A stretch of 64,000 nt of DNA from Oscillospiraceae bacterium (GTDB lineage: Bacteria; Bacillota; Clostridia; Oscillospirales; Oscillospiraceae): NCBI GenBank assembly GCA_902761635.1, contig CACWLG010000003.1, positions 41,376 to 105,375 on the forward strand. Direction: 5' to 3'. Below, in pieces: positions 42,951-59,111 of the stretch (positions within the stretch are counted from its first letter, which is position 1; the number at the start of each line of letters is the position of its first letter). Under the pieces are notes generated by a model, which saw only the letters and a list, made by a program, of their open reading frames with translations, did no database searches and was not told the DNA's origin. Both the position numbers and the translations under genes were made by a program.

Positions 42951-43648
42951 TGGGAAAAGACGTGATCGTTGCCTGTGATTTTTCGGGTGCGGAGGAGACC
43001 TTTGCCTTCCTTGAAAGATTCACCGAAGAAAAGCCCTTTGTCAAGATCGGCATGGAGCTATTCTACGCTGCCGGCCCGCAGATCGTACGGGACATCAAGG
43101 CTCGCGGGCACAGGATCTTTCTGGATCTGAAGCTCCATGACATCCCGAATACCGTACAAAAGGCCATGCGGGTACTGTCCAATCTGGATGTGGATATCGT
43201 AAACCTCCACGCCGGCGGGACAGCTGCCATGATGCGCGCAGCGCTGGAGGGACTGACACGTCCGGACGGTACCCGTCCGCTGCTCATTGCGGTCACCCAG
43301 CTCACCAGCACGGACGAGCAGACCATGAAAAGCGAATTGCTCATCGACCGTGCGCTGGACGAGGTGGTCATGCACTATGCCCATAACGCCGCGCAGGCGG
43401 GGCTCGACGGCGTGGTGTGTTCACCGCTGGAAGCCGGCAAAGTCCATGAAAAATGCGGCGAGAGCTTTCTCACCGTCACCCCCGGCGTCCGTTTCGCAGA
43501 CAATGAGATCGGCGACCAGAAGCGTGTCACAACGCCGGCACAGGCAAAGGAGCTGGGCTCTGATTATATCGTGGTAGGAAGGCCTGTCACGAAAGCGGCA
43601 GATCCTGTGGCTGCTTACCGCAGATGTGTAAAGGAGTTTGTGGGATGA
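42950..43648 (+). CDS. pyrF: Orotidine 5'-phosphate decarboxylase
   Basis: 232 residues. The catalytic D-K-x-x-D tetrad is visible in '[14 protein letters not shown]', following '[14 protein letters not shown]'. The late phosphate loop is '[18 protein letters not shown]'. It makes UMP from OMP. The start overlaps the pyrD stop by one base, and the stop overlaps the pyrE start by four, so translation is coupled in both directions. Confidence 0.95.
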
Positions 43649-44286
43649 AGAAAACGATTGCAAAGGATCTGCTGAAAATCGGGGCGGTCTTTTTCCGTCC
43701 GGACGAGCCCTTCACCTGGGCAAGCGGCATCAAAAGCCCCGTTTACTGTGATAACCGTCTGACCCTCACCGCCCCGGAGGTGCGGCTGGATGTGGAAAAG
43801 GGCCTTGCGGAGCTTATCCGGGAATACTACCCGGAGGCGGAGGTCCTGATGGGCACCTCCACCGCCGGTATTGCCCATGCGGCTATCACGGCGCACATCC
43901 TGAACATGCCCATGGGCTATGTGCGCTCCGGCGCAAAGGATCACGGGCGGCAGAACCAAATTGAGGGAAAGCTGGAGCCGGGACAGAAGGTCGTCGTGGT
44001 GGAGGATCTCATCTCCACCGGCGGGAGCGTCCTGGAGGTGGTCAATGTCCTGCGTGAGGCGGGAGCCCGGGTTCTCGGCATTGTCAGCATCTTTACCTAC
44101 GGAATGAAGAAGGGCCTGGAGAGACTGCAGGCGGCTTCGGTGGAAAACCACTCCCTGACCGATTTTGATACCGTTGCCGCCGTTGCGGCAGAGGAAGGCT
44201 ATATCCGCCCGGAGGACGTGGCACGGCTGATCGCCTTCCGCAATAACCCCTCTGACGAGAGCTGGATCGGGGAGGGCAGGGAATGA
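43645..44286 (+). CDS. pyrE: Orotate phosphoribosyltransferase
   Basis: 213 residues from ATG 43645; an in-frame ATG 21 bases earlier lies in pyrF and has no role. '[16 protein letters not shown]' binds orotate, '[10 protein letters not shown]' and '[10 protein letters not shown]' form the flexible loop side, and the PRPP loop is '[16 protein letters not shown]'. It joins orotate to PRPP, giving OMP for PyrF. It overlaps both pyrF and pyrB by four bases. Confidence 0.95.
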
Positions 44287-45206
44287 GGAGCCTGATCGAC
44301 ATCCTGGATTTTTCGGTGGAGGAGCTGCAGGAGCTAATTGATACCGCAAACGATATCATCGCCCATCCCGAAAAATACAGCGAACGCTGCCGCGGCAAGA
44401 AGCTTGCTACGCTCTTCTTTGAGCCCTCCACCCGCACGCGGCTGAGCTTTGAGGCCGCCATGTATGAGCTGGGCGGCAACGTGATCGGCTTTTCCGAGGC
44501 AAGAAGCTCCTCCGCTGCCAAGGGGGAGAGTGTGGCGGACACAGCCCGCGTCATCTCCTGCTATGCGGATATCATCGCCATGCGTCATCCGAAGGAAGGG
44601 GCGCCCCTCGTGGCTGCCATGAACGCCTCCATTCCCGTCATCAACGCCGGTGACGGCGGACACAATCACCCCACCCAGACCCTGGCGGATCTGCTGACCA
44701 TCTATCGGGAGAAGGGACGCTTCGAGCATCTTACGGTGGGCTTCTGCGGGGACCTGAAATTCGGCCGCACGGTGCACTCGCTAATATGCGCGCTTTCGCG
44801 CTATGAAGACATCCGCGTTGTACTGATCTCACCGGAAGAGCTGAAGCTCCCCAGCTACGTCAAGAAGGATGTGCTGGCGGCAAATCATATCCCTTATGTC
44901 CAGACAACGGATCTCGAATCGGTCATGCCCGATCTGGATATCCTCTACATGACCCGGGTCCAGCGGGAGCGCTTTTTTAACGAGGAGGACTATCTGCGCC
45001 TCAAGGACAGCTACATTCTGACACCGGAGCGGCTCTGGAACGCAAAGGCGGATCTGAGCATCCTGCATCCGCTGCCGCGTGTCAATGAGATCAGCGTCGC
45101 CATTGACGACGATCCCCGTGCCTGCTATTTCAAACAGGTGCTCTACGGCAAATATATGCGCATGGCGCTGATCCTCAAGCTATTACAGGAGGCGGGAAGA
45201 CTGTGA
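44283..45206 (+). CDS. pyrB: Aspartate carbamoyltransferase, catalytic subunit
   Basis: 307 residues. The carbamoyl-phosphate site '[13 protein letters not shown]' and the loop '[13 protein letters not shown]' are intact. '[18 protein letters not shown]' and the aspartate-side '[10 protein letters not shown]' follow. The presence of a regulatory-chain gene (pyrI) directly behind, with a four-base overlap, indicates the allosteric PyrB-PyrI holoenzyme and not the free trimer of Bacillus. Confidence 0.95.
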
Positions 45207-45619
45207 ATATTGACTCCATCCAGAACGGCATTGTGATCGACCACATCACCGCCGGACAGGGCATGCGCCTGTATGAGCTGCTTGGCCTTGAAAAGCTCGA
45301 GTGCTCGGTTGCGATCATCAAAAACGTAGTCAGCCGCAAGCTCGGCAAGAAGGATATTATCAAAATCGACTCCGGCATCCATGTGGACTTTGATGTGATC
45401 GGCTATGTAGATCCCGGTGCTACGGTCAATATCATCCGGGAGGGCAGGCTTATTGAAAAGCGGACCATTGACATGCCGGAGACGCTTACAAACGTGATCT
45501 TCTGTAAAAATCCCCGCTGCATCACATCCACCGAGCAGGAGCTCAAGCATGTTGTGAAGCTGACCGACCGGAGAAACAAGGTATACCGCTGCCTCTATTG
45601 TGAGACGAAGGCGAACTGA
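45203..45619 (+). CDS. pyrI: Aspartate carbamoyltransferase, regulatory subunit
   Basis: 138 residues from GTG 45203. The N-terminal allosteric domain ('[21 protein letters not shown]', nucleotide-binding 'GKKDIIKID') is followed by the zinc domain with four cysteines in 'CKNPRC' and 'CLYC'. CTP and UTP feedback is expected from the family. It overlaps pyrB by four bases, and purE starts 11 bases after it, so the pyr genes pass into the pur genes without a gap. Confidence 0.93.
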
Positions 45620-45630
45620 GGGAGGACTCT

Positions 45631-46119
45631 ATGAGAAAGGCTGCGATCATCATGGGCAGCGACAGCGATCTGCCCGTCATGGAAAAGGCTGTCAAGATCC
45701 TGCGGGAGCTGGAGATTCCCTTTGAGGCCCACGTCTATTCCGCACACCGAACCCCTGAGCAGGCGCGGGATTTTGCGCTGCATGCAAGAGAAAACGGCTT
45801 TGGCGTGATCCTTGCCGCCGCGGGAATGGCGGCACACCTGGCCGGGGCCATTGCCGCAAACACCACCCTGCCCGTCATCGGCATCCCCTGCAAGGGCCCG
45901 GCACTCGACGGGATGGACGCGCTGCTGTCCACGGTGCAGATGCCCTCCGGAATCCCGGTGGCGACTGTCGGGATCAATAATGGTGCCAATGCCGCCCTGC
46001 TTGCCGCCGAAATCCTCGCGGTGCAGGACGCGGCGCTTGCGGAAAAACTGCACGCCAGGCGGCTTGCCGATATGAAGGCTGTGCTGGACAAGGATGCCGG
46101 CATCGGCGAAAGACTTTGA
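45631..46119 (+). CDS. purE: 5-(carboxyamino)imidazole ribonucleotide mutase (PurE)
   Basis: 162 residues. The family start '[17 protein letters not shown]' is followed by 'SAHRTPEQ' with the catalytic histidine, and '[24 protein letters not shown]'. The substrate loop ends '[14 protein letters not shown]'. It resembles class I PurE, which works with PurK; no purK lies in the window. It opens the purine half of the run, 28 bases before purC. Confidence 0.94.
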
Positions 46120-46146: not shown

Positions 46147-46833
46147 ATGGAAAAGAAACTCGTTTACACCGGAAAGACCAAGAACGTTTACGCCCTTGAT
46201 AACGGCAATTACCTGCTCAAGTTCAAGGATGACTGCACCGGCAAGGACGGCGTGTTCGACCCAGGCGAGAATTCTGTCGGTCTGACCATCGACGGTGTGG
46301 GTGATGTGAATCTTCGCATGTCCATCTATTTCTTTGAGAAGATCAACGCCGCCGGCATCCGCACACACTATGTCAGCGCTGATCTCAAGGATACTACCAT
46401 GGAAGTGCTGCCCGCAAAGGTTTTCGGCAAGGGCCTGGAGGTCATTTGCCGTCACAAGGCCGTGGGTTCCTTTATCCGCCGCTACGGCGATTATATCGAG
46501 CCGGGCGCCGATCTGCCCGCTTATGTGGAGATGACCTTTAAGAATGATGAAAAGGGTGACCCCCTCGTCACCAAGGACGGTCTGATCGTTCTCGGTGTCA
46601 TGAGCGGCGAGCAGTATGATGAGATCAAGCGCATGACCCAGCAGATTACGCAGATCGTTGCCGATGAGATGAAGGCGCGCGGTCTGGTGCTTTATGACAT
46701 CAAGTTCGAGTACGGCTACGATGCCGACGGCAAGGTCATGCTCATTGACGAGATCGCCTCCGGCAACATGCGTGTATATAAGGATGGGGAGTACATTGAC
46801 CCGATGACTCTCTCCCGTCTGTTTTTTGCCTGA
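46147..46833 (+). CDS. purC: SAICAR synthetase (phosphoribosylaminoimidazole-succinocarboxamide synthase)
   Basis: 228 residues. N-terminal '[25 protein letters not shown]' is the ATP-side glycine loop, '[12 protein letters not shown]' is the substrate arginine region, and '[18 protein letters not shown]' is the metal-binding end. It joins aspartate to CAIR. The start ATG 46147 follows AAGGAGATATAAAC. The stop overlaps purF by one base. Confidence 0.94.
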
Positions 46834-48257
46834 TGGGCGGTTTCTTCGGCGCCATATCCAGGCGCGACATTGTTCTTGACGTTTTCTTCGGAACCGACTA
46901 TCACAGTCATCTCGGCACACGCAACGCCGGTATGGCGATCTGGAACAGGGAAGAGGGCTTCTGCCGTCAGATCCACTCCATCGCAAATACTCCCTTCCGT
47001 ACGCGCTTTGAAAAGGACCTTGCTGATTTCAAGGGCTCCAGCGGCATAGGCTGCATCAGCGACTCCGATCCGCAGCCGCTGCTGGTTCGCTCCCATCTCG
47101 GCATTTATGTCATCACCACGGTGGGGCAGATCAACAATGCTGAGGAACTGGTGGAGACTTATTTCTCGGACCACGGCCACCAGCTTATGGCGATGAGCTC
47201 CGGAAAGATCAACATGACGGAGCTGGTTGCAGCCCTCATCAACGAGTGCGAGTCTCTCCCTGAGGGAATTCTGAACGCCCAGAGGCAAATCGACGGGTCG
47301 ATGACGATCCTGCTCATGACTTCTGACGGGGAGATCATTGCCGCCCGCGACCGCTTTGGCAGGCTCCCTGTGCTCATTGGCGCTGACAGGGACGGTCACT
47401 GTGTTGCCTTTGAATCCTTTGCCTATCAGAAGCTCGGATACCACAGCGTACACGAGCTTGGCCCGCAGGAGATTGTGCGCATAACGGCTGATGGCTATGA
47501 GACGCTGTCACCTCCCACGGATAAGATGAAAATCTGCGCCTTTCTCTGGACCTATTACGGGTATCCGAACTCCAATTATGAGGGCGTGAACGTGGAGCTT
47601 ATGCGCTATCGCAACGGGGAAATCATGGCCCGTGACGAGAAGGCTGCCGGTAAAATGCCGAATGTGGATTATGTGGCGGGCGTACCGGACTCCGGCATCC
47701 CGCATGCCATTGGCTATGCCAACCACAGCGGCAAGCCCTTCGCACGGCCCTTCGTCAAGTATACGCCGACCTGGCCGCGATCCTTTATGCCTGCCAACCA
47801 GGATGTGCGCGATCAGGTGGCGAAGATGAAGCAAATTCCTGTGCCCGAACTGATTGAGGACAAGAAGCTCCTGTTTGTGGATGACTCCATCGTCCGCGGT
47901 ACCCAGCTGCAGGGCACGGTGGATTTTCTCTTTGAATCCGGAGCTGCCGAGGTACACATGCGCTCGGCCTGCCCGCCCATCATGTATGCCTGCAAGTATT
48001 TGGCCTTTTCCCGCAGCAACAGCGACCAGGATCTTCTGGCCCGCCGCGTTGTCCGGAAGCTCGAAGGTGAAGCGGGACTCAAGCATCTGGAGGAATACAG
48101 CGACGCTTCCACTGAAAGAGGACAGTGCCTGCTGCACGCCATCTGTGAAGAGCTGGGCTTCGATTCCCTGGGTTATCAGTCTCTGGACGGCCTGCTGGAG
48201 GCCATCGGCATCGACCATGAAAAAATCTGCACTTACTGCTGGACAGGAAAGGAATAA
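46833..48257 (+). CDS. purF: PurF-type amidophosphoribosyltransferase lacking the glutaminase nucleophile
   Basis: 474 residues. The C-terminal phosphoribosyltransferase half is intact: 'VAGVPDSGIPHAIGYA', 'KYTPTWPRSFMPANQD' and the PRPP loop 'LLFVDDSIVRGTQLQG'. The N-terminal glutaminase-fold half starts MGGFFGAI, where active enzymes start M-C-G-x-x-G, so the catalytic Cys1 is Gly. The usual His-Asn-Gly-Asn stretch reads 'TTVGQINNAEEL', and the substrate-arginine stretch also differs ('GIGCISDSDPQPL'). Glutamine hydrolysis should not occur; ammonia-dependent synthesis of phosphoribosylamine is the simplest reading. Its operon position, between purC and purM, supports the PurF role. Confidence 0.88.
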   Translation: MGGFFGAISRRDIVLDVFFGTDYHSHLGTRNAGMAIWNREEGFCRQIHSIANTPFRTRFEKDLADFKGSSGIGCISDSDPQPLLVRSHLGIYVITTVGQINNAEELVETYFSDHGHQLMAMSSGKINMTELVAALINECESLPEGILNAQRQIDGSMTILLMTSDGEIIAARDRFGRLPVLIGADRDGHCVAFESFAYQKLGYHSVHELGPQEIVRITADGYETLSPPTDKMKICAFLWTYYGYPNSNYEGVNVELMRYRNGEIMARDEKAAGKMPNVDYVAGVPDSGIPHAIGYANHSGKPFARPFVKYTPTWPRSFMPANQDVRDQVAKMKQIPVPELIEDKKLLFVDDSIVRGTQLQGTVDFLFESGAAEVHMRSACPPIMYACKYLAFSRSNSDQDLLARRVVRKLEGEAGLKHLEEYSDASTERGQCLLHAICEELGFDSLGYQSLDGLLEAIGIDHEKICTYCWTGKE

Positions 48258-48262
48258 GAGTC

Positions 48263-49300
48263 ATGACCAAGTCGCATTCCGCCTCGTACGCCGCCGCCGG
48301 TGTGAACATCGAAGCCGGATATGAAGGCGTAAAGCTCATGAAAAAGCATGTGGAGCGCACCGTGATCCCCGGCGTCGTATCGGATATCGGCGGTTTCGGC
48401 GGCCTGTTTTCTCCTGATTTTGCCGGCATGCGCGAGCCCGTTCTGGTCTCCGGCACGGACGGTGTCGGCACCAAGCAGCGCATTGCCCAGCTGATGGGAA
48501 AGCACGACACCGTGGGCATCGACTGCGTGGCCATGTGTGTCAACGATATCGTATGCTGCGGCGCAAGGCCTCTGTTCTTCCTGGACTATATCGCCATCGG
48601 CAAGAACGATCCCGAGAAGGTCGCGACGCTGGTCTCCGGTGTTGCCGAGGGCTGTGTGCGCGCAGACTGCGCTTTGATCGGCGGCGAGACGGCCGAGCAT
48701 CCCGGTACCATGCAGCCGGATGACTACGATCTGGCGGGGTTCTCTGTGGGGCTTGTTGACAGAGAGAAGGTCATCGATCGCAGCAGGGTCGGCAAGGGCG
48801 ACGCCGTGATCGCGCTCGCGTCCAGCGGTCTGCACTCCAACGGCTTCTCTCTGGTGCGCAAGGTCTTTGATGTGGAGCGCGCCGATCTTGGCGTATATGT
48901 TCCCGAGCTGAGCATGACACTCGGCGAGGCGCTGCTGACCCCGACAAAGATCTATGTGAAGTCGGTCCTCTCGGCAATCGAGATTGCCGATGTGCACGGT
49001 ATCAGCCACATCACGGGCGGCGGCTTCTATGAGAATATTCCGCGCTCAGTTCCGGAGGGCTTTTGCGCCAGAATTGAGAAGCGTGCCGTAAAGGTGCCGC
49101 CCGTCTTCACGCTCCTGCAGGAGAAGGGACAGATCCCTGAGCGGGATATGTTCAATACCTTCAACATGGGCGTCGGCATGATCCTGATCGTCTCCGCAGA
49201 TACGGCGGACAGGGCGCTTCACGCCCTGCAGGACGCCGGTGAAAATGCCTATATGATCGGTGAAATCGCCGGGGGAGAGGACAAGATATGTCTCATATAA
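48263..49300 (+). CDS. purM: Phosphoribosylformylglycinamidine cyclo-ligase (AIR synthetase)
   Basis: 345 residues. 'SYAAAGVNIEAGYEGVKLM' is the family N-terminus, 'SGTDGVGTKQRIA' the ATP/substrate loop, 'DCVAMCVNDIVCCGARPLFFLDY' the metal site, and 'IGGETAEHPGTM' follows. The C-terminal domain contains 'HITGGGFYENIPR'. Makes AIR from FGAM. Its stop lies 13 bases inside the next gene. Confidence 0.95.
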   Translation: MTKSHSASYAAAGVNIEAGYEGVKLMKKHVERTVIPGVVSDIGGFGGLFSPDFAGMREPVLVSGTDGVGTKQRIAQLMGKHDTVGIDCVAMCVNDIVCCGARPLFFLDYIAIGKNDPEKVATLVSGVAEGCVRADCALIGGETAEHPGTMQPDDYDLAGFSVGLVDREKVIDRSRVGKGDAVIALASSGLHSNGFSLVRKVFDVERADLGVYVPELSMTLGEALLTPTKIYVKSVLSAIEIADVHGISHITGGGFYENIPRSVPEGFCARIEKRAVKVPPVFTLLQEKGQIPERDMFNTFNMGVGMILIVSADTADRALHALQDAGENAYMIGEIAGGEDKICLI

Positions 49301-49905
49301 GAGCGGCCGTGCCGGATGGCATTCTCGCCGGGGCAATGGTTTCCATCGGCGGCACGGTGCTGCTGTCTGTTGATAACCGTTATATCGGGGCGGCGCTGTT
49401 CAGTATCGCACTGCTGGTCATCTGCTATTTCGGCTTCAATCTCTATACCGGCAAGGTGGGCTTTCTCTGGAACACCCACGGCAGAGCGGAGCTCTCCATG
49501 GCCTTCCTGGGCCTTCTGGGAAATCTCATCGGCGCCGTGCTTTCCGCTTTGCTGATCGCTGCGGCTCTGCCGCAGCTTCGGGAGACTGCCATAGCTGCCT
49601 GCGAAAAACGCCTTGTGCAGCTTCCGGTACAAACCCTGCTGCGCGGTTTCTTCTGCGGGATCCTGATGTACAGCGCCGTTTGGATCTATCGGGAGAAAAA
49701 AACCGCAGCCGGTATTCTCTTCTGCATCCCGGTTTTCATTCTCGCTGGCTTTGAGCATTCCGTTGCGGACATGTTCTATTTTGCGCTTGCCGGGCTCTTC
49801 ACACCAAAAGCGCTTGTCTTCATCCTGCTTGCGGTGCTCGGAAACAGTCTCGGCGGCATGTTTATCCCAGCAGTCCAGAGCCTGAAAGGAGAGAAAAAGC
49901 CATGA
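49288..49905 (+). CDS. Formate/nitrite transporter (FNT) family channel
   Basis: 205 residues with six membrane helices (about 9-27, 32-52, 69-94, 115-133, 140-168, 173-194). The FNT signature is clear: 'GFFCGILMYSAVW' in helix 4 and 'FILAGFEHSVADMFYF' in helix 5, with the channel histidine of FocA-type proteins. It is shorter than typical FNT proteins (about 270-285) because the cytosolic ends are minimal. It overlaps purM by 13 bases and purN by four, so it is embedded in the pur run. Formate import for formyl-THF synthesis (purN, AICAR transformylase, fhs) is the likely role; by inference. Confidence 0.85.
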   Translation: MSHIRAAVPDGILAGAMVSIGGTVLLSVDNRYIGAALFSIALLVICYFGFNLYTGKVGFLWNTHGRAELSMAFLGLLGNLIGAVLSALLIAAALPQLRETAIAACEKRLVQLPVQTLLRGFFCGILMYSAVWIYREKKTAAGILFCIPVFILAGFEHSVADMFYFALAGLFTPKALVFILLAVLGNSLGGMFIPAVQSLKGEKKP

Positions 49906-50522
49906 CAAAAGCAAAAATTGCCGTGCTGGTCTCCGGCGGCGGCACCAATCTGCAGGCCCTGATCGACGCGGAGAGAGCCGGCAAAATCAAAAGCGGCGAG
50001 ATCGTGCTGGTCGTCTCCAACAGCGCCTCTGCCTATGCGCTGGAACGGGCGAAAAACGCCGGGATCGAGAGCCTGACCCTCACGCGCAAGGACTGCGGCG
50101 GGCAGGAATCTTTCGAGAAAAAGCTCATGGAAGCGTTGGATGAGAGGGGGATTGACCTCATCATTCTCGCGGGCTTTATGAGCATTCTGAGCGAGCGCTT
50201 CACGGCACATTATCCGAAACGCATCATCAACATCCACCCGGCTCTGATCCCCGCTTTCTGCGGCAAGGGCTATTATGGACTGAAGGTACACGAGGCAGCG
50301 CTGAGCTGCGGTGTCAAGGTCACCGGCGCCACCGTGCACTACGTCAACGAGATCCCGGACGGGGGAGAGATCATTCTCCAGAAGGCGGTCAATATCCGAC
50401 CCGGCGACACAGCGGAGCTTTTGCAGCGGCGTGTCATGGAGCAGGCGGAGTGGAAGCTCCTGCCCCGGGCGGCGGAGCTTGTCTGCCGGAAACTTATGAG
50501 AGAGAAAGGAAAACGCATATGA
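49902..50522 (+). CDS. purN: Phosphoribosylglycinamide formyltransferase (GART)
   Basis: 206 residues. 'IAVLVSGGGTNLQALIDA' is the phosphate loop, 'LAGFMSILSERF' the folate side, and 'INIHPALIPAFCGKGYYG' contains the catalytic histidine. The catalytic Asp follows after 'TVHYVNEIPDGG'. Uses 10-formyl-THF, linking it to fhs further down and to the formate channel immediately upstream. It overlaps the following gene by four bases. Confidence 0.95.
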   Translation: MTKAKIAVLVSGGGTNLQALIDAERAGKIKSGEIVLVVSNSASAYALERAKNAGIESLTLTRKDCGGQESFEKKLMEALDERGIDLIILAGFMSILSERFTAHYPKRIINIHPALIPAFCGKGYYGLKVHEAALSCGVKVTGATVHYVNEIPDGGEIILQKAVNIRPGDTAELLQRRVMEQAEWKLLPRAAELVCRKLMREKGKRI

Positions 50523-51232
50523 ATATCTATGAAGTCGGCTCGATCGCCGAAAAGCTTGCAGGCAACACCTACCCCGGCCGCGGCATCATCCTCGGCCTGA
50601 CGCCGGACGGCACGCGCTCTGTCGCGGCCTACTTCATCATGGGCAGGAGCGTCAACAGCCGCAATCGCGTCTTCCTCTCCGAGCCTGACGGCATCCGCAC
50701 GCAGGCCCATGATCCGGCCCTGCTGAAGGATCCGAGTCTCATCATCTACCACCCCGTGCGCGAATACGGGGACTGGCTTATCGTCACAAACGGCGACCAG
50801 ACCGATACCGTTTGGGAAACTCTAAAGAAGGGCGGGGACTTTGAAAGCGCCCTGCGCACACGCTGCTTTGAGCCGGACGGGCCCAATTGGACGCCGCGCA
50901 TTTCCGGCCTGATTGATCTCAAGACAGGGGAATACAGACTCTCCATTCTCAAATCCGCCGATGCCGAGGGCTCTGCCTGCCTGCGTCAGACCTTTGAATA
51001 CGCGCCGCTGCCCGGGCTTGGACACTTTCTGCACACCTATGTCTGTGACGGGGACCCCATTCCCAGCTTTCAGGGTGAGCCAGAACGGGTGGAGACCCTG
51101 GACGATATCGACGCCTATACCGATCTCTTGTGGAAAAACCTGAACGCAGACAATAAGATCTCTCTCTATGTACGCTATACCGCGCTCAAGGGAGGGGCCG
51201 TTGAGCAGCGCATTGTCAATAAACACATTTGA
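50519..51232 (+). CDS. purO: IMP cyclohydrolase, PurO-like
   Basis: 237 residues from ATG 50519; the longer frame upstream lies inside purN. The sequence shows the PurO-type IMP cyclohydrolase pattern: 'NTYPGRGIILGLTPDG', 'AYFIMGRSVNSRNRVF' and 'VYTALKGG'-like 'RYTALKGGAVEQRIV'. This family was defined in archaea and occurs in some Clostridia. It closes the purine ring (FAICAR to IMP), replacing the N-terminal domain of PurH. It lies directly before the separate AICAR transformylase, which fits well. Confidence 0.82.
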   Translation: MNIYEVGSIAEKLAGNTYPGRGIILGLTPDGTRSVAAYFIMGRSVNSRNRVFLSEPDGIRTQAHDPALLKDPSLIIYHPVREYGDWLIVTNGDQTDTVWETLKKGGDFESALRTRCFEPDGPNWTPRISGLIDLKTGEYRLSILKSADAEGSACLRQTFEYAPLPGLGHFLHTYVCDGDPIPSFQGEPERVETLDDIDAYTDLLWKNLNADNKISLYVRYTALKGGAVEQRIVNKHI

Positions 51233-51244
51233 TGGAGGCAGAGC

Positions 51245-52423
51245 ATGAAAGAATTTGAACTCAAGTACGGCTGCAACCCCAACCAGAAGCCCGCAAAGAT
51301 CTATATGAAGGATGGCTCCGAACTGCCTGTCACGGTTCTCAACGGCCGCCCCGGCTATATCAACTTCCTTGATGCCCTTAACTCCTGGCAGCTTGTCAAG
51401 GAATTGAAGGAGGCTACGGGTCTGCCTTCTGCCGCATCCTTCAAGCACGTCTCCCCGGCAGGCGCTGCGGTGGGTCTTCCTCTTTCCGAGACTGACAGGA
51501 AGATCTACTTCGTGCATGAAGATGCAGCGCTCAGCCCCATCGCCTGTGCGTATATCCGCGCCCGCGGGGCAGACCGCCTGTGCTCTTACGGCGACTGGGC
51601 CGCCCTCAGTGATACCTGCGACGCCGCCACCGCCGCTTACCTGAAGGACGAGGTGTCCGACGGCATCATCGCTCCCGGCTACACCGAAGAGGCACTTGAG
51701 ATTCTTAAAACCAAGAAAAAGGGCGCCTATAACGTCGTACAGATCGACCCTGCCTATGTTCCCGCTGCGCAGGAGTGCAAGGATGTGTTCGGCGTCACCT
51801 TTGAGCAGGGGCACAATAGCTTCCGCATTGATGAGAGTCTGCTTGAGAATATCGTGACTGAGAATAAGGATCTTCCGCAGCAGGCGAAGATCGACATGAT
51901 CGTTGCGCTCATCACTCTCAAATATACCCAGTCCAACTCCGTCTGCTACGTAAAGGACGGGCAGGCCATCGGCGTCGGCGCCGGCCAGCAGAGCCGTATC
52001 CACTGCACACGCCTTGCCGGTCAGAAGGCTGACAACTGGTATCTGCGTCAAAATCCCAAGGTGCTGGGTCTGCCTTTCATCGACGGCATCCGCCGTGCTG
52101 ACCGGGACAACGCCATCGACGTCTACACCTCTGATGAATATGACGACATCCTGCGTGACGGCGAGTGGCAGAAGGTCTTCAAGGTACAGCCCGAGGTTCT
52201 GACCGCAGAGGAGAAAAAAGCCTGGATCGCTACGCAGAGCGGTGTGACCTGCGGCAGCGACGCCTTCTTCCCCTTCGGCGACAACGTAGAGCGCGCGCGC
52301 AAGTCCGGCGTGCAGTACATTGCAGAACCTGGCGGCTCCATCCGTGACGATCATGTGATTGATACAGCCAACAAGTACGGCATTGTCATGGCCTTCACCG
52401 GCATGCGTCTTTTCCACCACTAA
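51245..52423 (+). CDS. purH: AICAR transformylase (stand-alone PurH C-terminal domain)
   Basis: 392 residues, equal to the AICAR formyltransferase half of PurH; the IMP cyclohydrolase half is absent. The start 'FELKYGCNPNQKPAKIY' and the catalytic Lys-His in 'ASFKHVSPAGAA' are typical. 'TLKYTQSNSVCYVKDGQ' and 'GVGAGQQSRIHCTRLA' form the rest of the active site. Uses 10-formyl-THF. ATG 51245 follows GGAGGCAGAGC. With the preceding cyclohydrolase gene it performs the last two steps to IMP as separate proteins. Confidence 0.92.
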   Translation: MKEFELKYGCNPNQKPAKIYMKDGSELPVTVLNGRPGYINFLDALNSWQLVKELKEATGLPSAASFKHVSPAGAAVGLPLSETDRKIYFVHEDAALSPIACAYIRARGADRLCSYGDWAALSDTCDAATAAYLKDEVSDGIIAPGYTEEALEILKTKKKGAYNVVQIDPAYVPAAQECKDVFGVTFEQGHNSFRIDESLLENIVTENKDLPQQAKIDMIVALITLKYTQSNSVCYVKDGQAIGVGAGQQSRIHCTRLAGQKADNWYLRQNPKVLGLPFIDGIRRADRDNAIDVYTSDEYDDILRDGEWQKVFKVQPEVLTAEEKKAWIATQSGVTCGSDAFFPFGDNVERARKSGVQYIAEPGGSIRDDHVIDTANKYGIVMAFTGMRLFHH

Positions 52424-52438
52424 GGGAAGGAGAACCGT

Positions 52439-53710
52439 ATGAAAGTACTGGTTGTCGGAGGCGGCGGGCGTGAGCACGCCGTGATCCGAAAGCTCAGAGA
52501 GAACGGGGACATTACGGAAATCTATGCGCTGCCCGGAAACGGCGGCATCGCTGCGGATGCGGAATGTGTGCCCATTGCCGCGACTGATATTCCTGGCATC
52601 ACAGCCTTTGCGGCGGAGAAGGGGATCGACTATGCCGTCGTGACCCCGGATGACCCGCTGGTACTTGGCTGTGTGGACGCACTGGAGGAAAAGGGGATTG
52701 CCTGCTTCGGCCCGCATGCCAATGCTGCCATCATTGAGGGAAGCAAGGTTTTTTCAAAAAACCTCATGAAGAAATACGGCATTCCGACCGCCGGCTATGA
52801 GACCTTTGAGGACCTTGACGCGGCACTTGCCTATCTGGAGACTGCTCCGCTGCCCACGGTCATCAAGGCTGACGGCCTCGCCCTCGGCAAAGGCGTCATC
52901 ATCGCCGGGACGCGTGAAGAAGCCCGCGCCGCCGTCACCGATATGATGCAAAACGGCCGCTTCGGCAAGAGTGGAGAGCGCATCGTAATCGAGGAATTCC
53001 TCGAAGGGCCGGAGGTATCCGTGCTCGCCTTTACGGACGGCAAGACGGTCAAGCCCATGGTCTCCTCCATGGATCACAAACGTGCAGGGGATTACGACAC
53101 CGGTCTCAACACCGGCGGTATGGGAACAGTCGCGCCGAATCCCTTTTTCACCCCGGAGATCGCCGCACGGTGCATGGAGGAAATCTTTCTGCCCACCGTC
53201 GCCGCCATGAATGCCGAGGGCAGAGTCTTCAAGGGCTGTCTTTATTTTGGCCTCATGCTCACATCGGGCGGGCCAAAGGTCATCGAGTACAATTGCCGCT
53301 TCGGTGATCCGGAAACCCAGGTGGTGCTGCCGCTTTTGGAGAGCGATCTCTTCACCGTCATGCGTGCCGTTACGGAGGAGCGCCTTGCCGAGACGGAGGT
53401 GCGCTTTCGTGAGAAAAACGCCTGCTGCGTGATCCTCGCCTCCAAGGGTTATCCGGAGAGCTATCAGAAGGGTTACCCGCTTACCATCCCGGAGAGTGTG
53501 CGGGAACAGGTCTATGTTGCGGGCGCGAGGCTTCAGGATGGGAAGCTTGTCACTGCCGGCGGGCGTGTCGTGGGCTGCACGGCTGTCGGGGATACGCTGG
53601 CTGAGGCGGTCAGCGCAGCCTACAAGATCGCCGATCAGGTAAAGTTTGAGAACGCATACTGTCGCCGTGACATCGGGGCCAGGGCCCTGCAGGCGGCGCA
53701 GGAGGTTTGA
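52439..53710 (+). CDS. purD: Phosphoribosylamine-glycine ligase (GAR synthetase)
   Basis: 423 residues, ATP-grasp enzyme. N-terminal 'KVLVVGGGGREHAVIRKL', the ATP lysine region 'TVIKADGLALGKGVIIA', and 'YNCRFGDPETQVVLPLLESDL' with the metal ligands. 'GGMGTVAPNPFF' is the conserved glycine loop. Makes GAR from the phosphoribosylamine supplied by PurF. It begins behind GGGAAGGAG, and purL follows one base after its stop. Confidence 0.95.
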   Translation: MKVLVVGGGGREHAVIRKLRENGDITEIYALPGNGGIAADAECVPIAATDIPGITAFAAEKGIDYAVVTPDDPLVLGCVDALEEKGIACFGPHANAAIIEGSKVFSKNLMKKYGIPTAGYETFEDLDAALAYLETAPLPTVIKADGLALGKGVIIAGTREEARAAVTDMMQNGRFGKSGERIVIEEFLEGPEVSVLAFTDGKTVKPMVSSMDHKRAGDYDTGLNTGGMGTVAPNPFFTPEIAARCMEEIFLPTVAAMNAEGRVFKGCLYFGLMLTSGGPKVIEYNCRFGDPETQVVLPLLESDLFTVMRAVTEERLAETEVRFREKNACCVILASKGYPESYQKGYPLTIPESVREQVYVAGARLQDGKLVTAGGRVVGCTAVGDTLAEAVSAAYKIADQVKFENAYCRRDIGARALQAAQEV

Positions 53711-53711
53711 A

Positions 53712-56700
53712 ATGGTATTTCGCGTATTTGTAGAGAAAAAACCGGGACTGGACAATGACGCACAGAGCCTTCTGAACGACGCCAGAACACTACTTGGCAT
53801 TCAGGGGCTGGAGCGTGTACGGCTCTTGAACCGCTACGACGCAGACAATATCAGTGAAGAGCTCTTCAACTATGCGGTCAGAACTGTCTTCTCCGAACCG
53901 CAGCTTGATCTGACGTACACACACCCGGAGCTGGGGGAGGCAAGGGTCTTCGCTGTTGAATACCTGCCGGGGCAATTCGACCAGCGGGCCGATTCCGCTG
54001 CACAGTGTATTCAGATCATCTCTCGGGGTGAGCGTCCCCTTGTGCGCTCGGCCAAAGTATATGCCCTGTACGGAAAACTCACCGACACGGAGATCGACGA
54101 GATCAAAAAATACGTCATCAACCCCGTGGAGGCGCGGGAGGCTTCACTTGATACGGCGGATACCCTGGCCGTACAGTATGAGATTCCAACCACGGTGGAG
54201 ACGCTGCACGGTTTTACAAAGCTCAGCCGCGCAGAACTGGAGAACTTTGTTGTACACTATGGCCTTGCCATGGATGCCGATGATATTGCTTTCTGCCAGG
54301 CATATTTCCAGAAGGAAGGCCGCGATCCCACCATCACGGAGATCCGGGTGCTGGATACCTATTGGTCGGACCATTGCCGCCACACCACCTTCAACACCGT
54401 GATCGACAGCGTAAGCTTTGAAGATTCACTGCTCCAGAATGCGTATGAGGCATATCTGGAGACCCGCCGCGCCCTGAAGCGCAAAAAGCCGGTGTGCCTC
54501 ATGGATTTGGCGACGCTTGCCGTCAAAGCCCTGCGAGAGCAGGGAAAGCTTGAAAAGCTCGACGAGTCGGAGGAGATCAATGCCTGCACGGTCAGGATCA
54601 CGGTAAAGACGGACGGGAAGGACGAGCCCTGGCTTCTGCTCTTTAAGAACGAGACGCACAACCATCCCACAGAGATCGAGCCCTTTGGCGGCGCGGCCAC
54701 CTGCATCGGCGGCGCGATCCGCGATCCGCTTTCAGGCCGTGCGTATGTTTACGGGGCCATGCGCGTGACCGGCGCCGCAGATCCCACGGTTCCAATCAGC
54801 GAAACGCTGCCCGGCAAGCTTCCCCAGCGCAAGATCGTCACCACGGCTGCGGCGGGATATTCCTCTTACGGCAATCAGATCGGGCTTGCCACCGGCATTG
54901 TGGACGAGCTCTATCACCCCGGCTATGCCGCCAAGCGTATGGAAATCGGCGCAGTCATCGCTGCGGCTCCCGCAGAGAATGTGCGGCGCGAAACGCCGGC
55001 AGCGGGGGATGTTGTGATCCTCCTCGGCGGCAGCACCGGTCGTGATGGCATCGGCGGCGCCACCGGCTCTTCCAAGGCGCACAATGCGCACTCAGTCGAG
55101 ACCTGCGGTGCCGAAGTGCAGAAAGGAAACGCCCCCGAGGAGCGCAAGCTCCAGCGGCTTTTCCGCAACGGAGACGCTTGCCGCATGATCAAGCGCTGCA
55201 ACGACTTCGGCGCAGGCGGCGTATCCGTGGCCATAGGTGAGCTTGCCGACGGTCTTGATATTGATCTCAACAGAGTACCCCGCAAGTACGAGGGCCTGGA
55301 CGGAACCGAGCTTGCCATCAGCGAATCGCAGGAGCGCATGGCCGTAGTGGTTGATGCACGGGATGCGGATGCCTTTCTTGCTCTGGCAGCTCAGGAAAAT
55401 CTGCAGGCCTGTCCTGTTGCCGTTGTGAAAGCGGAGCCTCGTCTGACCATGCGCTGGAACGGTGAGACCATTGTTGATCTGAGCCGTGCTTTCCTTGATA
55501 CAAACGGCGCAGAAAAACACATCACTGTCTCTGTTGCAGCGCCGCAGACGTATCGCAGACAGGTTTCCGGCAGCTTTGCGGAGAACTACAGGTCTCTTGC
55601 CTTGGATCTCAACTGCTGCTCCAGGCGCGGGCTCTCCGAGCGCTTTGACTCCACCATCGGGGCCGGAACCGTACTCATGCCCTTCGGCGGCAGGAACCAG
55701 CTCACGCCCATCCAGGCCATGGTACAGAAAATCTCCGTAGAGAAGAAGCACACGGATGACTGTTCTCTGATGGCTTGGGGCTACAATCCCTTCATCACCG
55801 AGAAGAGCCCTTATCACGGGGCCTTTATCGCGGTGATCGAATCTGTATGCAAGCTGGTTGCGACGGGCGCAAAGTTTGAAGATGTTTACCTGAGCTTTCA
55901 GGAGTATTTTGAACGTCTCGGAAAGGATGCCAAACGCTGGGGAAAACCGCTTGCGGCTCTGCTTGGCGCCTTCCGGGCTCAGATGGATCTGGGGATCGGG
56001 GCCATCGGCGGCAAGGATTCCATGAGCGGCTCCTTTGAAAAGCTCGACGTGCCGCCGACGCTGGTTTCCTTTGCGGTCACGACAGAAAAACAGCAGAATA
56101 TCGTCTCTCCCGAGCTCAAGGCGGCCGGGCATTATCTGATGCGTCTTGCACCGGAATATGATGAGAACGGCCTGCCCGTGGCTTCGTCGCTGATAAAGCT
56201 TTTTGACCGGGTCACAAAGCTGCTGCGCAGCGGTGAAGCTGTGTCATGCTGCACGCCGGGCTATGGCGGCATTGCGGAAGCGGTATTCAAGATGGCGCTC
56301 GGCAACGCCGTGGGCGTCACTTTTCAAGACGGGCTGAGCGTGGATGCTCTCTTCGGCTATGATTACGGTGCCTTCCTGCTGGAGACAAAGGAAATCCTTC
56401 CCGACGCGCAGATGATCGGCCGCACAGTCGAAAGGCCGACGCTGTGCCTGGATGGGGAAGAGCTTACACTCTCTGACCTGCTTGCAAGCTATGAAAACCG
56501 CCTCGAGCCGGTATACAGCTGCAACATCCCAACCGCAGCACAGAAGATGGAAACCTTCACTTACCACTGTGAAAAACGCGCTGCGCCCGCTTATCTGTGC
56601 GCAAAGCCCATGGTCCTGATTCCGGCCTTCCCAGGCACCAACTGTGAATATGACAGCGCAAAAGCTGTGCGCGACGCCGGCTGCGATGCGGAGATCTTTG

Positions 56701-57401
56701 TTATCAACAATCTCAGCGCCGACGGCATTGCGCGCAGTGTGGAGAGCTTTGCCGAAAAACTGAAAACAGCACAGATCGTGTTCATCCCCGGCGGCTTTTC
56801 CGGCGGTGACGAACCGGACGGGTCCGGCAAATTTATCACCGCCTTTTTCCGCAACGCCGCCGTCAAGGAGGGGGTGGCGGCACTTTTGGAAAAACGCGAC
56901 GGCCTTATGTGCGGCATCTGCAACGGCTTCCAGGCGCTGATCAAGCTGGGGCTGGTGCCTTATGGGAGAATCATGGAACCCGACGAGAGCTGCCCGACGC
57001 TGAGCGTTAATACCATCGGCCGCCACCAGTCCCGGATCGTTCGCACGCGCATTGCGTCCAATAAATCCCCGTGGCTTGCGCTGACCAACGTGGGGGATGT
57101 TTACAGCGTTCCGATCTCCCATGGCGAGGGGCGTTTCCTGGCGGATGAGGCGCTGATCCATTCTCTGGCGGAAAACGGTCAGATCGCCACACAGTATGTA
57201 GACTTTGAGGATAAAGCTACGGGCGACGTGCACTTCAATCCCAACGGTTCGCTCTTTGCCATAGAGGGCATTACCTCCCCGGATGGTCGCGTCTTCGGCA
57301 AGATGGGCCACTCTGAGCGCATTGGCGCTGGTCTCTATCGCAATGTTCCCGGCAATTACGATATCCGCATGTTTGAAGCGGCAGCAAAATACTTTCACTG
57401 A
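53712..57401 (+). CDS. purL: Phosphoribosylformylglycinamidine synthase, single-chain form
   Basis: 1229 residues from ATG 53712, behind GGAGG; an upstream in-frame ATG lies inside purD. It is the large fused enzyme (PurS-like, PurL and PurQ domains). Central parts carry 'TYWSDHCRHTTF', 'FKNETHNHPTEIEPFGGAAT' and 'GGKDSMSGSF'. The C-terminal glutaminase is intact: nucleophile in 'MCGICNGFQAL' and the His-Glu pair in 'SHGEGRFL'. The contrast with the glutaminase-negative PurF is notable. fhs follows 33 bases later. Confidence 0.95.
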   Translation: MVFRVFVEKKPGLDNDAQSLLNDARTLLGIQGLERVRLLNRYDADNISEELFNYAVRTVFSEPQLDLTYTHPELGEARVFAVEYLPGQFDQRADSAAQCIQIISRGERPLVRSAKVYALYGKLTDTEIDEIKKYVINPVEAREASLDTADTLAVQYEIPTTVETLHGFTKLSRAELENFVVHYGLAMDADDIAFCQAYFQKEGRDPTITEIRVLDTYWSDHCRHTTFNTVIDSVSFEDSLLQNAYEAYLETRRALKRKKPVCLMDLATLAVKALREQGKLEKLDESEEINACTVRITVKTDGKDEPWLLLFKNETHNHPTEIEPFGGAATCIGGAIRDPLSGRAYVYGAMRVTGAADPTVPISETLPGKLPQRKIVTTAAAGYSSYGNQIGLATGIVDELYHPGYAAKRMEIGAVIAAAPAENVRRETPAAGDVVILLGGSTGRDGIGGATGSSKAHNAHSVETCGAEVQKGNAPEERKLQRLFRNGDACRMIKRCNDFGAGGVSVAIGELADGLDIDLNRVPRKYEGLDGTELAISESQERMAVVVDARDADAFLALAAQENLQACPVAVVKAEPRLTMRWNGETIVDLSRAFLDTNGAEKHITVSVAAPQTYRRQVSGSFAENYRSLALDLNCCSRRGLSERFDSTIGAGTVLMPFGGRNQLTPIQAMVQKISVEKKHTDDCSLMAWGYNPFITEKSPYHGAFIAVIESVCKLVATGAKFEDVYLSFQEYFERLGKDAKRWGKPLAALLGAFRAQMDLGIGAIGGKDSMSGSFEKLDVPPTLVSFAVTTEKQQNIVSPELKAAGHYLMRLAPEYDENGLPVASSLIKLFDRVTKLLRSGEAVSCCTPGYGGIAEAVFKMALGNAVGVTFQDGLSVDALFGYDYGAFLLETKEILPDAQMIGRTVERPTLCLDGEELTLSDLLASYENRLEPVYSCNIPTAAQKMETFTYHCEKRAAPAYLCAKPMVLIPAFPGTNCEYDSAKAVRDAGCDAEIFVINNLSADGIARSVESFAEKLKTAQIVFIPGGFSGGDEPDGSGKFITAFFRNAAVKEGVAALLEKRDGLMCGICNGFQALIKLGLVPYGRIMEPDESCPTLSVNTIGRHQSRIVRTRIASNKSPWLALTNVGDVYSVPISHGEGRFLADEALIHSLAENGQIATQYVDFEDKATGDVHFNPNGSLFAIEGITSPDGRVFGKMGHSERIGAGLYRNVPGNYDIRMFEAAAKYFH

Positions 57402-57434: not shown

Positions 57435-59111
57435 ATGACTTACAAAACCGATATTGAGATCGCGCAGGAATGCGTCATGCAGCCCATCGGGGAGATTGCG
57501 CGCCGAGCTCATGTGGATGAAAGGTATCTGGAGCAGTATGGCCGTTATAAGGCAAAGATCGACCCGGCGCTGCTGCGGGAGACAGATCGGGAAAACGGCA
57601 GGCTCGTGCTTGTCACGGCGATCACTCCCACTCCTGCCGGAGAGGGTAAGACCACCACAACCATCGGCCTGGCAGACGGTCTGCGGCGCATTGGCAAGGA
57701 TGTCGTCGTGGCTTTGCGTGAGCCGTCCCTCGGCCCTGTTTTCGGGATCAAGGGCGGCGCAGCCGGAGGCGGCTATGCTCAGGTGGTGCCCATGGAGGAT
57801 ATCAACCTCCACTTTACCGGTGACTTTCATGCCATCGGCGCCGCCAACAACCTGCTGGCTGCCATGCTCGACAACCATATCCAGCAGGGCAACAGCCTGC
57901 ATATCGACCCTCGCCGCATTACCTGGAAGCGCTGCGTAGATATGAATGACCGACAGCTCCGCTTTGTGGTGGACGGCCTCGGCGGCAAGGTCAACGGCAC
58001 GCCGCGCGAAGACGGCTTCGACATTACCGTAGCAAGCGAGATCATGGCGGTATTCTGCCTGGCTTCCTCCATTACCGATCTCAAGGAGCGCCTCAGCCGC
58101 ATCATCGTAGGCTACAGCTATGAGGGCAAACCTGTCACCGCCGGTGACCTCAAGGCAGTCGGCGCCATGGCGGCCCTCCTGAAGGATGCACTCAAGCCCA
58201 ACCTGGTGCAGACACTGGAGGGAACGCCCGCTTTTGTGCACGGCGGACCCTTTGCCAACATCGCCCACGGCTGCAACTCTGTCATGGCAACGCGCATGGC
58301 GATGAAGATGGGCGATTATACCGTTACGGAGGCCGGCTTCGGTGCGGATCTTGGGGCAGAGAAATTCCTCGACATCAAATGCCGTATGGCGGGACTGAAG
58401 CCTGACGCGGTGGTGATCGTCGCCACAGTCCGCGCGCTCAAAATGCATGGAGGCCTGCCCAAGACGGAGCTCAATACAGAAGACCTCGGTGCACTGGAGA
58501 AGGGTGTCCCGAATCTGCTGCGTCATGTGTCCAACATTCGGTACGTCTATGGCCTGCCCTGTGTGGTTGCTGTCAACCGCTTCCCTTCGGATACAGATGC
58601 AGAGATTGATTTCATCATAGAAAAGTGTCGTGAACTCGGCGTCAACACAGTGCTCTCCACTGTCTGGGCCGAGGGAGGCAAGGGCGGAGAAGCGCTGGCA
58701 CGTGAGGTCGTTCGGCTCTGCGAGGAAGAGAAGGGCGATTTCCGCTTCTCCTATGAACTCGACTGCAGCATGGAGGAAAAGATCCGGGCAATCGTCACGC
58801 GGATATACGGCGGCAGAGACATCAGCATTCTGCCTGCTGCCCAGAAGCAGATTGACGAACTTACAAAGCTCGGCTTTGCAGGGCTCCCGGTCTGCATCGC
58901 CAAGACCCAGTATAGCTTTTCCGACGATCCCACGAAGCTTGGCGCGCCGGAGGATTTCACCGTCACGGTGAAAAATGTCAAGGTCTCGGCCGGTGCCGGC
59001 TTTATCGTAGTCCTCACGGGCGACATCATGACCATGCCGGGGCTGCCCAAGGTCCCCGCTGCCGAGAAGATCGACGTGGATGAGGACGGCAGAATCAGTG
59101 GTCTTTTCTAA
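57435..59111 (+). CDS. fhs: Formate-tetrahydrofolate ligase
   Basis: 558 residues, the usual length. The P-loop is '[18 protein letters not shown]', '[18 protein letters not shown]' is the formyl-phosphate/folate region, and '[15 protein letters not shown]' and '[13 protein letters not shown]' follow. It makes 10-formyl-THF from formate and ATP, feeding PurN and AICAR transformylase. It also belongs to the Wood-Ljungdahl methyl branch, but no other acetogenesis gene is here, so supply of purine formyl groups is the likely role. ATG 57435 follows AAAGAGGTACGACC. Confidence 0.96.

Follow-up and report, generated by a model that had tools for sequence, protein, structure and literature searches.

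Purine synthesis opens with a textbook case of glutamine-fed nitrogen transfer, a step that is also a control point of the pathway. The canonical enzyme is PurF (EC 2.4.2.14, TIGR01134), represented by the enzyme of E. coli and by the B. subtilis structures 1gph and 1ao0. In E. coli PurF, the glutamine loop comprises R73-E84 and the flexible loop of the phosphoribosyltransferase (PRTase) domain K326-L350, and the ammonia channel has one wall made up of Y74 and I335 (PMC7953260). A departure from this design has been described in archaea. Each crenarchaeon studied is reported to carry, beside a normal PurF, a second copy without the N-terminal cysteine, named PurF', which clusters with purine genes and for which dependence on ammonia was only proposed (PMC3261824). 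The same source reports that E. coli PurF lost the use of glutamine and kept the use of ammonia when Cys1 was replaced (Mei and Zalkin 1989, as cited in PMC3261824).

Here we describe a separate family of bacterial PurF relatives, which we call PurF*. It includes an open reading frame (ORF) in the purine operon of an Oscillospiraceae bacterium, within the 64,000-nucleotide stretch of DNA that was analysed as a whole (the window; Table 1). We found no report of such a bacterial family among open-licence PMC papers.

Table 1. Genes of the purine operon in the window, and sites within PurF* (residue numbers of E. coli PurF where so indicated).
Feature	Position	Strand	Basis or remark
pyrE (phosphoribosyltransferase fold)	43645..44286	+	PF00156; name by context, start by eye
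pyrB	44283..45206	+	
pyrI	45203..45619	+	
purE	45631..46119	+	
purC, short form	46147..46833	+	stop overlaps PurF* start
PurF*, 474 aa, dismantled glutamine site	46833..48257	+	ORF; TIGR01134 171 bits (cut-off 350); residue alignment
purM	48263..49300	+	
Formate/nitrite transporter family (FNT) channel	49288..49905	+	
purN	49902..50522	+	
PurO-like IMP cyclohydrolase	50519..51232	+	PF07826
Stand-alone AICAR transformylase domain protein	51245..52423	+	PF01808
purD	52439..53710	+	
purL fused to PurQ-type class I glutaminase domain	53712..57401	+	GATase_5, residues 965-1228
fhs, formate-tetrahydrofolate ligase	57435..59111	+	
Gly2 codon, replacing the Cys1 nucleophile	46836..46838	+	Gly in 100/100 PurF*; Cys in 41/41 canonical
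E. coli glutamine-loop residues 73-80, missing at aa 75/76	47055..47060	+	alignment; missing in 100/100
Val97, replacing E. coli Asn101	47121..47123	+	alignment
Cys235, Fe-S ligand position 1	47535..47537	+	C in 100/100
PRTase flexible loop, rewritten: KYTPTWPRSFM (aa 309-319)	47757..47789	+	alignment
PRPP loop DDSIVRGTQ (aa 350-358); E. coli T374 is Gln	47880..47906	+	alignment
Cys387, Fe-S ligand position 2	47991..47993	+	C in 100/100
Cys466 and Cys469 (CTYC), Fe-S positions 3 and 4	48228..48239	+	99% C, 1% gap (100 rows)

Loss of the glutamine site and conservation of the domain

Among solved structures, the window protein is closest to 1ao0 and 1gph of B. subtilis PurF (E ~1e-42). The curated purF model of NCBIfam, TIGR01134, gave it only 171.1 bits against a cut-off of 350, which places PurF* outside the curated family as a relative of PurF. 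The named genome collection contained at least 593 related stretches. Our alignment holds 100 PurF* sequences, namely the window protein, 80 from named loci and 19 others; these are kin rather than independent observations, several are partial at one end, and three further partial sequences (L056, L057 and L084) were kept outside the alignment. The comparison set of canonical PurF had 48 members, of which 41 entered the residue alignment after 7 with incomplete N-termini had been dropped.

An earlier note on this DNA, made from the sequence alone, had described the protein as a PurF with glycine in place of cysteine at position 2. The N-terminus indeed reads MGGFFG, and the glycine is shared by all aligned members of the family. 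The start codon itself appears sound. The purC stop and the PurF* ATG overlap as TGATG, and the 11 codons that lie in frame between this ATG and the preceding stop include no ATG, GTG or TTG. The upstream frame does contain one Cys codon, two codons ahead of the Met. However, this cysteine does not adjoin the GxFG motif; starts could be located for 95 of the 100 members, and of these just 22 have a Cys in frame upstream. A restored Cys1 is therefore not supported, and an upstream start of this kind was ruled out; nor did we find support for a frameshift that would bring the cysteine back.

The losses extend well beyond the nucleophile (numbering follows E. coli PurF in the alignment of 100 PurF*). 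Arg26 is Leu in all 100 sequences, H71 is Cys in 90%, Asn101 is replaced by Val, Ile or Thr next to a retained G102, and Asp127 has mostly become Ser or Gly. Because the glutamine loop spans R73-E84 (PMC7953260), the missing piece, residues 73-80, corresponds to the core of this loop and includes Arg73. With it goes Y74 of the channel wall, and its partner I335 is Met or Thr in 98% of the sequences; hence, the ammonia channel known from E. coli is not intact in PurF*. The alterations that the earlier note had seen in the Asn-Gly and arginine motifs are thus real, and the alignment with E. coli PurF points to a glutamine site that has been dismantled rather than mis-annotated.

The PRPP half tells a different story, albeit not quite the one told before. 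The PRPP loop and PRPP-site residues of canonical PurF are present in PurF*, with T374, which is Gln in 100/100, as the exception: R332, T333 (as Ser), K349, D366, D367, R371 and T373 are retained in 100/100 and R342 in 99. The motif DDSIVRGT is unaltered in the window protein and varies across the family only by Ile to Val or Leu in 5%. Yet the earlier description of this half as perfect was too strong. Besides the change of T374, the flexible loop, KNRYVGRTFI in canonical PurF, reads KYTPTWPRSFM in PurF* with a fixed insertion of one residue, and in the 'RPDS' motif the Arg and Asp that are invariant in canonical PurF are changed. Since the flexible loop and T374 are changed throughout the family, the acceptor reaction could differ from that of canonical PurF. 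The four conserved cysteines occupy the positions of the Fe-S ligands of B. subtilis PurF.

The former glutaminase domain is conserved. The ratio of mean identity in the N-terminal half to that in the C-terminal half was 0.895 for the 100 PurF* and 0.899 for the 48 canonical PurF. Measured against the PRPP half, conservation of the dead domain thus equals that of the live domain in canonical PurF, and the dead domain does not look as if it were decaying. In seven hand-picked pairs, dN/dS ranged from 0.05 to 0.23 in the N half and from 0.02 to 0.11 in the C half, with dN higher in the N half in 7/7 pairs; in the pair that includes the window, dS was saturated (1.7 in the N half). Hence, constraint is mostly weaker on the N half than on the C half, but the N half is clearly under purifying selection. 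Seven polar residues specific to PurF* (D22, H24, S25, H48, R56, D77 and N127) are invariant in the 100 sequences, and canonical PurF lacks two short insertions that PurF* has at aa 57-59 and 124-126. The role of scaffold that the earlier note assigned to the domain is a guess; given these invariant polar residues and insertions, the domain may do more.

Genomic context and distribution of PurF*

In the window, PurF* lies between purC and purM in an operon that runs from pyrE to fhs in the order of Table 1. The rest of the purine pathway is largely present in this genome, with purB on another contig of the same assembly. The window purC encodes a short protein of 228 aa that scored 117 bits, below the purC model cut-off of 190. 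For the final purine steps, the operon encodes a PurO-like IMP cyclohydrolase and, separately, an AICAR transformylase (50519-52423) instead of a bifunctional PurH. An FNT gene sits between purM and purN in the window (49288-49905), as it does at L103, L138, L149, L150, L154, L164, L168, L191 and L193; among the 80 named loci this arrangement occurs in 7, and in the window fhs lies downstream. The channel may supply formate for formyl-tetrahydrofolate and thereby for the two formyl transfers of the pathway.

Similar surroundings are common in the family. Within the DNA available for each of the 80 named loci, which by their titles come mainly from gut and rumen Clostridia, 61 had PurF* flanked by purE or purC upstream and by purM downstream, 5 had purine genes on one side only and 14 had none; these 14 include all 10 Coriobacteriia (by title or lineage). 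At five loci (L110, L112, L116, L126 and L128), PurF* and a canonical purF are neighbours in one operon, in either order. Conversely, in 10 operons from genomes with PurF* only (L196-L205), no purF was found between purE (or purC) and purM, and PurF* is located elsewhere.

Is PurF* the only PurF of its host? The earlier note had named a second, canonical purF in the same genome as one result that would count against its reading. Neither TIGR01134 nor a search with the PurF* protein revealed a second full-length PurF in the window assembly, which is 85.8% complete; the four other matches were GlmS, AsnB and two AsnB-like proteins, all with Cys1. Other genomes give a mixed picture. PurF* was present in 22 genomes of a class sample of 60, where canonical PurF was also present in 13 and absent in 8, and one (G250) had an extra fragment only. 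This fragment, at L083 555-893, is a C-terminal PurF*-like piece beside an intact PurF* gene. Among the genomes of 48 of the 80 named loci, for which completeness is not stated, a PurF over the cut-off accompanied PurF* in 20 and none over the cut-off was found in 28, including Evtepia gabavorous KLE1738 and Adlercreutzia equolifaciens DFI.6.87.

A larger class sample comprised 195 genomes, all at least 95% complete except the window's own. Here, PurF* occurred in 60 genomes, of which 42 had a further PurF match, so that PurF* is not a simple replacement in these, and 18 had a single PurF match (the window genome and 17 others). Canonical PurF over the TIGR01134 cut-off was found in 0 of these 17 highly complete PurF*-only genomes. 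Their completeness was judged by the stated values together with purM and purD. PurM was over its cut-off in 24/24 genomes (the 17 and 7 more), and purD was present in 36/36 PurF*-only genomes, a set partly overlapping with the 17, and over the cut-off in 35; the presence of purD is partly expected, because it often shares the operon with PurF*. PurB failed as an independent marker of completeness, since TIGR00928 at E <= 1e-60 detected it in 13 of the 36 genomes and not in the other 23. These 23 may carry a divergent purB, as does genome G493, which is outside the 36. There, the gene (L182 13235-14662) encodes a divergent adenylosuccinate lyase with the Pfam domains Lyase_1 and ADSL_C. G493 is a single contig of 1.67 Mb in which PurF* is the sole PurF found, within one operon of purE, purC, PurF*, purM, purN-purO, purB, AICAR transformylase, purD and purL, the last being cut by the end of the analysed stretch. 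Fusion of purN and purO was seen at this locus, L182. The PurF*-only state is not general, however: in a phylum-wide sample of 249 genomes, canonical PurF was over the cut-off in 233, and only in the window genome did the best match fall in the PurF* range.

A tree of 68 PurF* and 6 canonical rows separated the two with support of 100/100. The PurF*-only state changes about 18 times on this tree, and at least 10 of these changes are forced by well-supported branches, although draft genomes can inflate the count; the tree omits L083 (G250), and L128 is labelled as bearing canonical PurF by its neighbour gene. Nine PurF* from Coriobacteriia (L127, L129, L131, L134, L135, L136, L140, L141 and L142) nest within those of Clostridia with support of 99/98, which suggests that PurF* moved between the two phyla.

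Nitrogen source and alternative explanations

With its glutamine site lost, how could PurF* serve purine synthesis? We think it reasonably probable that this bacterium starts purine synthesis with PurF*, that the enzyme combines PRPP with ammonia from solution to 5-phosphoribosylamine, and that the former glutaminase domain was kept for the fold and as an inlet for NH3. In detail, the domain would no longer hydrolyse glutamine, having lost the nucleophile, Arg73, the core of the closing loop, Asn101 and Asp127. It would still hold the two-domain fold together, and NH3 would travel to the PRPP site by way of the former glutamine pocket, which without its closing loop would stand open as an inlet. 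Dissolved ammonia would then be the partner of PRPP. We infer what reaction takes place, where the ammonia comes from and that an inlet exists from residues, gene order and occurrence; among these, formation of phosphoribosylamine by the predicted synthase is likely, and free ammonia is the best-supported reading of its substrate. It is also the simpler source, as E. coli PurF deprived of Cys1 kept its use of ammonia in the work cited by PMC3261824. Bacteria in which PurF* is the only PurF found would thus probably use ammonia directly at this step. This need not apply to their metabolism at large: the window genome keeps PurL with its glutaminase domain, GlmS, AsnB and a CarA-like gene, and the bacterium is therefore not generally ammonia-dependent. 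The overall interpretation of the earlier note, a dead domain kept as scaffold with free ammonia or a partner glutaminase feeding the first step, accords with the dead glutamine site, the largely present pathway and the lack of canonical PurF over the cut-off in 17/17 genomes; its perfect PRPP half does not stand.

Ammonia might instead be delivered in trans by a glutaminase docked on the dead domain. The conservation of this domain would fit such docking, and the PurQ-type domain of PurL, encoded in the same operon, is the one candidate that can be named, although another amidotransferase might serve. Yet PurL needs its own ammonia, and a dedicated partner did not emerge from the operons: when ORFs on the same strand and at least 110 aa long were examined, 14 were unassigned, and none of them recurs in more than two loci. 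Likewise, no stand-alone glutaminase partner was found among the class I and class II domain matches of genomes G493 and G000. In G493, the class II model PF13522 matched one ORF, taken as GlmS by its size, and the class I model PF00117 matched two long ORFs, which by their length we take to be GuaA and PyrG, and one peptidase C26-type hydrolase. A divergent domain could escape this search, as PF13522 does not catch PurF* itself, and so could any other domain outside the reach of the two models. On balance, we regard delivery in trans as unlikely. Alternatively, the pocket might have been rebuilt for another nitrogen donor or an allosteric effector, which would give the domain a new activity or ligand. 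The seven invariant polar residues, the two insertions and the low dN/dS of the domain in the hand-picked pairs are what one might expect in that case; however, conservation of residues can equally be structural, and dN exceeded that of the PRPP half in every pair, so that we consider a new ligand quite unlikely.

A further explanation might be that PurF* is a non-catalytic regulator or subunit, with the work done by a normal PurF. The 42 genomes with a further PurF match and the five loci where the two genes adjoin are in line with this idea. It is contradicted, however, by the 17 highly complete PurF*-only genomes, all of which have purM, unless an unrelated enzyme makes phosphoribosylamine there, and the retained PRPP-site residues also argue against it; accordingly, we give it very little probability. 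Practically negligible is the chance that the family is an artefact of a wrong start, a frameshift, a pseudogene or an assembly gap hiding a normal purF. The 85.8% completeness of the window assembly and the unstated completeness of the 48 named-locus genomes leave some room for such a gap. Against it stand the abundance of related stretches, a change common to every aligned member, the low dN/dS, and the recurrence of the same state in 17 genomes that are at least 95% complete, among them a single contig. This refutes the artefact for the family, whereas in the window genome a canonical purF may still come to light in a finished assembly.

A broader possibility is one that we put forward as speculative and somewhat doubtful: a large lineage of anaerobic Clostridia, and the Coriobacteriia that received the gene from it, might make purines de novo without a glutamine-dependent first step, with the domain rebuilt into a new, conserved site, either an ammonia inlet or a sensor of another ligand, such that purine output would track ammonia instead of glutamine.

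Comparison with known PurF proteins

An ammonia-driven first step in common gut bacteria would have consequences. The purine and glutamine needs predicted from their genomes would have to be revised, and at this step they should respond differently to glutamine analogues. PurF* would then also be a natural PurF with its two half-reactions separated.

Canonical PurF and PurF* share the two-domain layout, the PRPP loop, the Fe-S cysteine positions of the B. subtilis type and the place in the purine operon. They differ in that PurF*, at ~28-39% identity in matched stretches and 171 versus 350 bits, is without Cys1, Arg26, Arg73, Tyr74, Asn101, Asp127 and the loop core, and has an altered flexible loop. 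The E. coli Cys1 mutants, as described in PMC3261824 (citing Mei and Zalkin 1989), match what is predicted for PurF*, no use of glutamine and continued use of ammonia. These are laboratory replacements of one residue, however, whereas PurF* is a natural family in which the whole site is lost.

The closest precedent is crenarchaeal PurF' (PMC3261824). It has in common with PurF* the lack of the N-terminal cysteine, the linkage to purine genes and the possible use of ammonia. In many PurF' the cysteine is replaced by Ala or Val, whereas bacterial PurF* has Gly. Moreover, PurF' was described beside a normal PurF, while no canonical PurF was found in the window genome, and none over the cut-off in 28/48 named-locus genomes and in the 17/17 picked as PurF*-only. 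What sets PurF* apart from PurF' is that it is bacterial, carries Gly and is in many genomes the sole PurF found. It makes the 2011 proposal on archaeal PurF' testable in culturable bacteria.
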